From positions 1 to 20,737 of the IMG/VR virus record IMGVR_UViG_3300030104_000580: 20,737 bases of DNA; one strand, 5' to 3'. Shown here piece by piece: positions 17,179-18,657 of this stretch; positions within the stretch are counted from its first letter, which is position 1; the number at the start of each line of letters is the position of its first letter. A program made the position numbers and the translations under genes. A model generated the notes under the pieces. That model did no database searches, had not been told where the DNA came from, and saw nothing but the letters and a program-made list of their open reading frames with translations. Source of the DNA: a virus.

Positions 17179-17215
17179 AGTCAAGCACTTTCTTACAAAA
17201 ATATATGATAAATAC

Positions 17216-17284
17216 CACTTAAGTGTACATTTAAGTGTTATTAGCAATCTAATTAATAAACATTTTAATGAAACACTTTAAGTG
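17216..17284. promoter_or_regulatory. Three CACTT(N)AAGTG dyads (putative operators)
   Basis: CACTTAAGTG at 17216-17225 is a perfect 10-bp palindrome. CATTTAAGTG at 17228-17237 differs at one position. CACTTTAAGTG at 17274-17284 is a perfect dyad with a central T. They lie between the predicted start of the leftward transcript (about 17294) and the first gene, a typical repressor position. A phage regulator that binds them has not been found in the window. Confidence 0.5.
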
Positions 17285-17300
17285 AACCTAGTTATGTATA

Positions 17301-17329
17301 ATTATACCACGTTTGTCAACCCTTGTCAA
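17301..17329 (-). promoter_or_regulatory. Consensus sigma70 promoter of the leftward operon
   Basis: Minus-strand TTGACA (17329-17324) and TATAAT (17306-17301) are separated by exactly 17 bp, all twelve consensus bases matching. Predicted start near 17294, followed by the CACTTAAGTG dyads. A promoter this strong fits a unit of about 17 kb. Confidence 0.85.
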
Positions 17330-17336
17330 TAGTTAA

Positions 17337-17364
17337 TTTATACTTTCGTGCATTTAGTTGTCAG
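17337..17364 (-). promoter_or_regulatory. Second, upstream sigma70-like promoter of the leftward operon
   Basis: Minus-strand CTGACA (17364-17359) and TATAAA (17342-17337) are separated by 16 bp, five of six matches in each box. It stands in tandem with the consensus promoter, 35 bp further upstream. Confidence 0.5.
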
Positions 17365-17786
17365 TTACCCTTGTGGTTAACACTTAAAAAACCTCATCTG
17401 TGTATTTCTCTGTACACGTATACGCTACACCCCCCAGTGGAGCTTGCCTACCCCATGCAAGAAGTATGCCACTATCACTTTCCACCCCAAAAAAACACTA
17501 TTTTAGCATGTCATTAATTTGAAAACGCATATAAGCCAGTAAAATAAGGGACTTCATGCATAAAGACAACTGATTTGCTATCATTTGACGCATTTGTCAA
17601 AAAATTGAACTCAATATATTGACAAAAAAGGGTATCCCCATGGTAGCAGTGCATAAAATACCACCACCAATTTTAATTGTTGGCATGCCCCTTTTTTTAT
17701 TCCAGTAAAATAAAACTTTTTTTACTAGTTATAATAGAGAAAAAATAATTTCACTTTTTTTAAACTTTTTTTATTTATTTTCAAAC
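17365..17786. other. AT-rich non-coding segment of the divergent control region
   Basis: No gene is supported here; the open frames are short and without ribosome binding sites. It contains a TTTGAC-N6-GTCAAA dyad (17584-17601), an imperfect hairpin at 17664-17683 (CAATT/AATTG core) followed after a GC-rich CATGCCCC by seven T's (17692-17698, possible weak rightward terminator), a lone TATAAT at 17730-17735 without a -35, and a long A/T tract at about 17700-17785. The tract could be upstream-activating DNA for the sigma54-like site, or a replication-start region, but no iteron set was seen. Confidence 0.5.
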
Positions 17787-17803
17787 TTGGCACACCGCTT
17801 GCA
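17787..17803 (+). promoter_or_regulatory. sigma54-like (-24/-12) promoter motif
   Basis: TTGGCACACCGCTTGCA matches the RpoN consensus TTGGCAC(G)NNNNTTGCA at all but one position, with the invariant GG (17789-17790) and GC (17801-17802) exactly ten bases apart. The predicted start falls at about 17812-17815, at the first base pairs of the structured region that follows. The long T/A tract just upstream is compatible with bent DNA for an activator. There is no experimental support, and phage use of RpoN promoters is uncommon. Confidence 0.45.
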
Positions 17804-17811
17804 ACATGTTC

Positions 17812-18240
17812 GGTGTAGTCGGCAGTAACGCATTCGGAACTACTTGAGACAGATACACCGCTTAGTGGCAACGCACTCAACTGAACACTATTATGACTTT
17901 GCAAGAGTTATGTTACATTGGTTTGCAAATGTTTTGATACTGTCCTAGTCGGTAACACGTTCCAAGTTTTTGACGTGTCGCATTCTGACTGGGGAAAGTC
18001 AAAACGGAAATCCTTTGGTAGGCACGTGATAGATGGGCATAGCTAGTTGAGAGCAACACTATACGCTTTTACGACAAGTGCATTTGATTATCCCACGCAT
18101 TAGTAATTAACTCAAGATATGGCTTGGCAATAACAAGGCGGTTTTAATAGTTGTACCGCCTACCTTTAGAAACTCCGCTAAAGGATACGCATTTGAGGAC
18201 GTGATGCACTAAAACTACTATAACGCTAGATTATTAATAT
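17812..18240 (+). ncRNA. Candidate structured non-coding RNA (about 430 nt or longer)
   Basis: No credible ORF lies here, and base composition is more balanced than in the flanks. Successive stems can be drawn by eye: 17811-17817 with 17854-17860 (CGGTGTA/TACACCG), 17893-17898 with 17906-17911 (with a G-U pair), TTTTGAC with GTCAAAA about 23 nt apart around 17970-18005, 18037-18066 (GTTG-AGAG-CAAC top with ATAG/CTAT below), 18136-18142 with 18155-18161 (AGGCGGT/ACCGCCT), and 18163-18169 with 18178-18184 (CCTTTAG/CTAAAGG). Unpaired ACGCATT-like words recur between them. TAGTCGG appears twice. It begins at the predicted sigma54 start and may end at the inverted repeat at 18330. I cannot match it to a named RNA class; large phage RNAs such as GOLLD or ROOL should be tested. 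The 3' end is uncertain. Confidence 0.4.
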
Positions 18241-18329
18241 ATTGTTATTAACGTGAACGTGAGAAACTTGGTTTTCCTTACATGCCAACACAATATATGA
18301 AACTCTAGATTACTCACCAAAATTTAATT

Positions 18330-18368
18330 TGATAGGCACTGTAAAACGTGTGTCGTATGTGCCTATCA
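18330..18368 (+). terminator. 10-bp inverted repeat before the rightward promoter
   Basis: TGATAGGCAC (18330-18339) and GTGCCTATCA (18359-18368) pair perfectly around a 19-nt loop, followed by TTAATTTTG. Read rightward it could end the candidate RNA. Read as DNA it is an operator ten bases upstream of the -35 of the next promoter. Confidence 0.5.
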
Positions 18369-18377
18369 TTAATTTTG

Positions 18378-18404
18378 TTGACTTATATGTTTTGGGGATA
18401 TAAT
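18378..18404 (+). promoter_or_regulatory. Rightward sigma70-like promoter
   Basis: TTGACT (18378-18383) and TATAAT (18399-18404) are separated by 15 bp, short of the usual 17, but the -10 is perfect and preceded by TGGGGA. It would start near 18411 and drive the rightward gene set beginning at 18454. Confidence 0.55.
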
Positions 18405-18453
18405 GATATATCCAGACGACTAAACCAACCAACATACATAGGAGATGTATATT

Positions 18454-18657
18454 ATGAAAAATACAGAATTTTATATCGGAAACGTAAACGTCAAATCAAC
18501 TACTAAAACTTTTAATGAGATTAGTGGTGTCTTTTATCAAAGAACAACTAAAAGATACAACAAGCCAGTAGGCTCAATCTCTAGTCACAAGCAGTATTTC
18601 TCAGTTGATAGATGTCCGATTACTGGACAATGGAAGTCTAAGAAAAAAGCTTCTTAA
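18454..18657 (+). CDS. Small protein, first gene of the rightward set (67 aa)
   Basis: I start it at the ATG at 18454 because GGAG lies nine bases upstream; the earlier ATG at 18445 touches that GGAG and cannot use it. The 67-aa product is polar and basic, with FYIGNVNVKSTTKTFNEISG, GVFYQRTTKRYNKP and a PITGQWKSKKKAS end, which looks like a small beta protein. No family recognised. It is followed by a strong hairpin at 18663-18696 and a leader sharing AACCAACCAA with its own. Confidence 0.65.
   Translation: MKNTEFYIGNVNVKSTTKTFNEISGVFYQRTTKRYNKPVGSISSHKQYFSVDRCPITGQWKSKKKAS

Follow-up and report, generated by a model that had tools for sequence, protein, structure and literature searches.

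Among the structured RNAs encoded by phages, GOLLD and ROOL are the closest described systems to the RNA considered here. GOLLD RNAs are very large and have no known function; their 3' part is conserved and their 5' part variable, and some members are marine (PMC12286853). ROOL RNAs, about 600 nt in length, contain pseudoknots and conserved kissing loops, and in both families such loops join RNA copies (PMC12286853). An RNA that appears to share most of these properties is encoded in the control region of an uncultured marine phage, analyzed here in a window of 20,737 nt (the whole stretch of DNA that was analyzed), which belongs to a virus record of 47.7 kb.

This RNA meets the criteria for the GOLLD/ROOL-like kind, being phage-encoded, longer than 400 nt and provided with an extensive covarying secondary structure. 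Judged by analogy, it resembles GOLLD and ROOL most in its size, elaboration and unknown function, and is a member of neither. Unlike GOLLD, its members are all found in one HMO-2011-type control region and have no Rfam match in either of the two clades described below. It likewise differs from ROOL in lacking an Rfam match and, in the window, in not lying beside a tRNA island: the window contains no tRNA, and one is present about 1.1-1.5 kb downstream in three related loci (L033, L034 and L129).

With the gathering thresholds of Rfam 15, no family other than three tRNAs matches the window or 21 related loci, and permissive scans give only chance-level matches. The curated thresholds of GOLLD, ROOL, HEARO and OLE are not met in the window or related loci, so that none of the large families named as candidates by the initial annotation (GOLLD, ROOL and HEARO) accounts for the RNA. 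Supported by covariation and matched by no Rfam family, an RNA of this size extends the short list of large phage RNAs by one class. It also offers a separate example from which to ask about the role of such RNAs and how common RNA-only assemblies are.

The control region and the RNA encoded in it

The phage is of the HMO-2011 type, its terminase being 83% identical to that of Puniceispirillum phage HMO-2011. Phages of this type rank among the dominant marine phage groups (PMC9038755). A genome survey of them makes no mention of non-coding RNA or promoters. The recognized genes include those for the portal, head, DNA polymerase A, class II ribonucleotide reductase (RNR), methylase and integrase. 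The phage also encodes an ADP-ribosylglycohydrolase (Pfam ADP_ribosyl_GH; G000:C1 about 23659-24519, L117 3160-4020), possibly a counter-defence enzyme. Structural genes are read leftward and the genes to the right of the control region rightward; the stretch between the two sets, about 1.27 kb (17185-18453), has no credible genes.

Distant blastn matches to isolated phages are limited to a separate non-coding patch at 17358-17454. The patch (GTGGTTAACACT...CTGTGTATTT...CACCCCCC) is kept in HMO-2011, CRP-1, CRP-345 and the clade-2 locus L035; its function is unknown, and it perhaps belongs to the leftward transcript as a leader, or serves in replication or packaging. Two contigs binned into Maricaulis and Rhodobiaceae metagenome-assembled genomes (L153 and L154) carry an RNR 77-78% identical to that of the phage and are probably phage contigs within these bins. 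No structured RNA was found in four metagenome-assembled genomes with a related RNR gene.

No isolated phage examined carries the RNA: the clade-2 model described below finds no convincing copy in HMO-2011, nine CRP phages or ctYwJ313. This distribution bears on whether the RNA could serve on the portal, as the packaging RNA of phi29 does, since it too is a structured RNA encoded by a phage, with loops that could join subunits. The packaging RNA described so far is far smaller and comes from small phi29-type phages. As the terminase here falls into ordinary large-subunit families and most of the HMO-2011-type relatives examined lack the RNA, a packaging role is scarcely credible.

The coordinates of the features are collected in Table 1. 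Clade 1 consists of the window and six distinct contigs (L001, L002, L003, L004, L008 and L018). Throughout 17814-18338 and its counterparts in the six relatives, each of the six frames contains at least six stops in every sequence; on the + strand, no more than 49 codons follow one another without a stop. The absence of a credible ORF, remarked upon when the region was first described, thus holds for the whole clade, and a conserved ORF, which would have refuted a non-coding RNA, is not found in the window or these relatives. The RNA is read rightward; it begins at about 17814, reaches at least 18308 and probably extends to about 18368, its start being inferred from the promoter and its 3' end from hairpin P10. 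P10 is at best weakly terminator-like; as it lacks a clear U-run, the 3' end remains an inference. The best explanation of the clade-1 sequences is a stand-alone RNA of about 500-550 nt, with both ends inferred in the absence of transcript data.

Table 1. Coordinates of the RNA, its structural elements and the neighboring signals in the window
Feature	Position	Strand	Remarks
Perfect sigma-70 promoter, TTGACA-17-TATAAT	17301..17329	-	faces the leftward structural genes
Sigma-54-type site, leftward, TGGCATACTTCTTGCA	17456..17471	-	two mismatches
Two tandem dyads, GTCAA-N4-TTGAC	17596..17623		between the divergent sigma-54 sites; perfect copies in relatives
Putative sigma-54 (-24/-12) promoter, TGGCACACCGCTTGCA	17788..17803	+	one mismatch; predicted start near 17814
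Window-only 5' domain, hairpin GGUGUA/UACACC	17812..17860	+	hairpin without comparative support
Structured non-coding RNA	17814..18368	+	alignment with six relatives; covariation, strand and ORF tests
Helix P2	17898-17905 with 17922-17929	+	C-G to U-A exchange
Pseudoknot, P2 loop 17915-17921 with 18012-18019	17915..18019	+	A-U to G-C in L003
Helix P3	17931..18005	+	six pairs changed on both sides
P3a; P3b; P3c	17931-17938/17998-18005; 17943-17952/17985-17994; 17956-17960/17973-17977	+	
Loop CCAAGU, putative kissing partner of 18266-18271	17962..17967	+	invariant in clade 1; CCAAGG in clade 2
Window-only insertion, about 85 nt	18040..18125	+	absent from six relatives; no comparative support
Helix P5 with conserved loop UUUUAAUAGUUGUA	18136..18161	+	four compensated pairs; loop recognizable in clade 2
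Helix P6	18163..18184	+	two compensated pairs
Helix P7	18189..18207	+	G-C/C-G exchange; another hairpin instead in L003, L004
Helices P8/P9	18226..18308	+	four pairs changed on both sides
P8; P9a; P9b; P9c	18226-18230/18304-18308; 18238-18245/18290-18297; 18252-18255/18281-18284; 18261-18264/18273-18276	+	
Loop ACUUGG, putative kissing partner of 17962-17967	18266..18271	+	CCUUGG in clade 2
3' hairpin P10, GAUAGGCA/UGCCUAUC	18330-18339/18359-18368	+	GGGGCG/CGCCCC in L001; clade-2 counterpart covaries
Sigma-70-like promoter, TTGACT-15-TATAAT	18378..18404	+	downstream of the RNA
First rightward gene	18454..18657	+	67 aa, no known family

Covarying helices in two clades

The structure was written out explicitly from the clade-1 alignment, which comprises few sequences, and its pairs were then counted. 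The 74 pairs tested in the seven phages are 96-97% kept, and 20 of them have changed on both sides. Segment A3 (window 17879-18041) has 96.8% of its cells paired and 8 of 36 pairs changed on both sides; for segment A4 (18125-18345) the values are 96.2% and 12 of 38. None of 500 shuffles of A3 attains the observed number of cells paired, cells changed or covariation score, and 0-2 of 500 do so for A4 (none on the main measures). Sliding the partners by 1-3 columns as a control lowers the pairing to 30-51%. The shuffles take no account of the relatedness of the seven sequences and so overstate the significance, a concern that is answered in part by repeated different changes at one pair and by the second clade. 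One pair of P3a, for example, is U-A, C-G or G-U among clade-1 members, one pair of P8 is U-A, G-C or A-U, and P5 reads AGGCGG/CCGCCU in the window, GGUAGG/CCUACC in L002 and AAGCGG/CCGCUU in L003.

The peripheral hairpins show large insertions and deletions, and the core is kept. The clade-1 relatives have a different 5' domain from the window, with compensated stems of its own. Both strands of the pseudoknot change length together.

The structure exceeds chance by covariation and not by folding energy. By minimum free energy the region is unremarkable, with a z-score of -1.21 on the + strand and a lower one, -3.28, on the opposite strand, and the z-score was therefore rejected as evidence for structure. 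The strand is indicated by the pairs themselves: among 518 pair cells, 428 are Watson-Crick, 72 are G-U and 5 are A-C, which places the RNA on the + strand because a structure on the other strand would give the reverse. This bias also bears on the possibility that the inverted repeats work as DNA, in the form of a replication origin, cruciforms or operators. The setting would suit such a role, as the region lies between divergent transcription units and contains dyads and AT-rich tracts. The excess of G-U over A-C has no reason at the DNA level, and long-range helices and loop-loop complementarity are retained. A DNA-level role for the region is thus very improbable. An exception may be made for the dyads at 17596-17623, which lie outside the RNA and could well act as operators.

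A covariance model built from A3 (R1) finds one further full-length match in 655 kb, locus L035 (19.8 bits, E 0.12), at the homologous place and on the homologous strand. This locus shares an RNA of about 850 nt with L033 and L034, and pattern scans extend the group, clade 2, to 17 loci, two of which (L143 and L150) look identical over the part read. Further pattern hits, L100-L115 and L116, were dismissed as chance matches. The 42 pairs of the clade-2 3' domain are 98.8% paired, with 12 changed on both sides, and 13 of 24 predicted pairs in its P2/P3 domain are compensated. P3b was left out of the latter count, since it pairs in most clade-2 members in a shifted register.

In the reverse direction, the top matches of the clade-2 model (R2) in 545 kb are five clade-1 loci (E 0.006-0.26), again at the homologous place and strand. 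The P5 loop reads UUUUAAUAGUUGU against UUUUGUAAGUUGU between the clades. Each cross-clade model score is weak alone; taken with the common position and orientation, the P5 loop, the CGAAC and GGGCG segments and the P3 and P9 tips, they make homology of the two RNAs likely.

Complementarity between the P3c loop and the tip of P9, which in the window are separated by about 300 nt, is found in all seven clade-1 phages (CCAAGU/ACUUGG) and in 6/6 clade-2 loci checked (CCAAGG/CCUUGG). A single change separates the clades here, the last pair being U-A in clade 1 and G-C in clade 2. The tips meet the criteria for a conserved kissing contact, as judged from complementarity only; whether it forms within or between molecules is not known.

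These comparisons strengthen the initial annotation, which had proposed a structured non-coding RNA in the control region: with covariation in two clades (its absence would have counted as refutation), no ORF and a G-U excess on the + strand, comparative sequence evidence indicates that the RNA is real. Two of the stems drawn by eye, at 18136-18161 and 18163-18184, correspond to the compensated helices P5 and P6, and the 10-bp inverted repeat noticed near the end of the RNA is P10, likewise compensated. A third stem, 17892-17911, must be abandoned; it is broken in L004 without compensation in alignment A3, and P2 fits better. The other two, 17811-17860 and 18037-18066, fall in stretches that only the window has and are thus without comparative support. 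The sigma-54 type of the promoters, the pseudoknot, the loop-loop contact and the clade-2 relatives were not part of the initial annotation. The second of two TAGTCGG copies belongs to helix P3b, and the first is not conserved. Repeated ACGCATT words had also been listed, and these are not conserved except for one copy in the P3 internal loop.

The loss of these words in the relatives weakens the idea that the RNA is a sponge or decoy that titrates host proteins or small RNAs. Such an RNA might be expected from a possibly regulated promoter and from conserved loops such as UUUUnnnnGUUGU in P5. As no repeated recognition element is conserved, the idea is highly improbable.

Promoters and dyads around the RNA

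The sigma-54 consensus is TGGCACG-N4-TTGCA. The site at 17788 meets the criteria for this promoter type in its GG at -24, GC at -12, spacing and consensus, and is the best match in the 47.7-kb genome (expected 0.09 per genome and 0.0025 per 1.2 kb). The strong promoter-like motif reported earlier at 17787 is thus real, but of the sigma-54 and not the sigma-70 type. In all six clade-1 relatives the site is present twice in tandem, at a distance of about 98 bp, with the boxes kept and the spacer varying. The leftward site has the same position in every clade-1 locus, and the partial contigs L014 and L022 have it there too. No sigma-54 sites were found at equivalent positions in related phages without the RNA, nor upstream of the clade-2 RNA, which makes sigma-54 control a feature of one lineage and not of the whole family. 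Its use in clade 1 is inferred from consensus and conservation only, and a host RpoN has not been shown.

The arrangement agrees with known sigma-54 promoters in the GG and GC elements 12 bp apart, the TGGCAC and TTGCA boxes, the variable spacer and the tandem copies, and dyads lie about 125-165 bp upstream, a distance that would suit an enhancer. The arrangement differs from known sigma-54 promoters in its setting, upstream of a non-coding RNA in the control region of a phage, and in that the activator is not phage-encoded; no sigma-54 activator was found among the phage's own genes, which rules out such a candidate. The dyads at 17596-17623 are a possible enhancer or operator. Relatives that lack sigma-54 sites have similar dyads as well, which precludes assigning those of the window to the sigma-54 promoter as its enhancer. 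FleQ was rejected as the activator on the same ground and because the FleQ box, which the dyads resemble, is called unreliable in the paper that quotes it (PMC6120874). The control regions of four further loci (L023, L063, L086 and L089) contain runs of 3-5 perfect GTCAA-N4-TTGAC dyads, several of them reading GTCAAAAAATTGAC, which suggests that this dyad is a widespread operator in this phage group.

Just after P10 there is a sigma-70-like promoter. Its TATAATG is kept in clade 1 and its -35 only in the window and L003; clade-2 loci have TTGAC(A/T)-15/16-TGTAATG at the equivalent place. Its position suggests that transcription of the downstream genes begins here, independently of the RNA, which would then be a unit of its own. 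This argues against the main rival to a trans-acting RNA, namely a long cis-acting leader (5' UTR) of the rightward genes, used for attenuation, translation control or antitermination. In every member the RNA lies directly upstream of these genes and points at them; no strong terminator intervenes, and beyond P10, immediately ahead of the ribosome site, there is another dyad able to form a hairpin. As no clear intrinsic terminator was found at the 3' end of the RNA, read-through into the 67-aa gene is possible. Large riboswitches exist; the RNA nevertheless goes beyond ordinary leaders in its size, pseudoknot and loop-loop contact. The leader remains possible and, in our judgment, doubtful.

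Possible role and other candidate RNAs at the locus

A separate non-coding RNA that acts in trans during infection is the reading that we prefer, with a probability of roughly 0.6. The trans action is inferred without transcript data; what has been established directly is the conservation of sequence, the covarying helices, the strand, the lack of an ORF and the cross-clade loop complementarity. In clade 1, the RNA would be started at the 17788 site by the sigma-54 RNA polymerase of the host, once an enhancer-binding protein, likewise from the host, has activated it. The folded transcript would comprise, in turn, a 5' domain, the P2/P3 domain and its pseudoknot, hairpins P5-P7 and a P8/P9 domain. 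Pairing of the P3 and P9 tips would lock the compact fold, and the RNA so folded would work in trans while infection proceeds, either in a structural role or by binding protein. Through the sigma-54-type promoters, the output of phage RNA may be linked directly to the regulatory state of the host.

By analogy with ROOL and GOLLD, it can be speculated further that the RNA represents a new class of large phage RNA, in which the P3 and P9 tips would join copies into an RNA-only assembly, made in one marine lineage under host sigma-54 and only when the host enhancer-binding protein is active. As a whole this proposal is tentative and more probably wrong than right. If true, it would tie infection to the nutrient or stress state of the host.

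The same control region in four other loci (L056, L060, L066 and L092) contains a different, GC-richer stretch of about 320 nt that looks structured, about 900-1200 nt from the left gene. It has 90 predicted pairs, 12 of them compensated in three sequences, is matched by neither clade model, and may be regarded as another candidate RNA. Isolated phages have a candidate structured RNA at the same locus, at about 3250-3660 of L010 (HMO-2011), 3160-3546 of L011 (CRP-1) and 3830-4219 of L012 (CRP-345). Compensation is seen in 14 of its 72 predicted pairs, and one hairpin reads GGUAUC/GAUACC, GCAAUC/GAUUGC and GUAAUC/GAUUAC. The overlapping ORFs 72 and 73 annotated in HMO-2011 lie inside this candidate and may be spurious.
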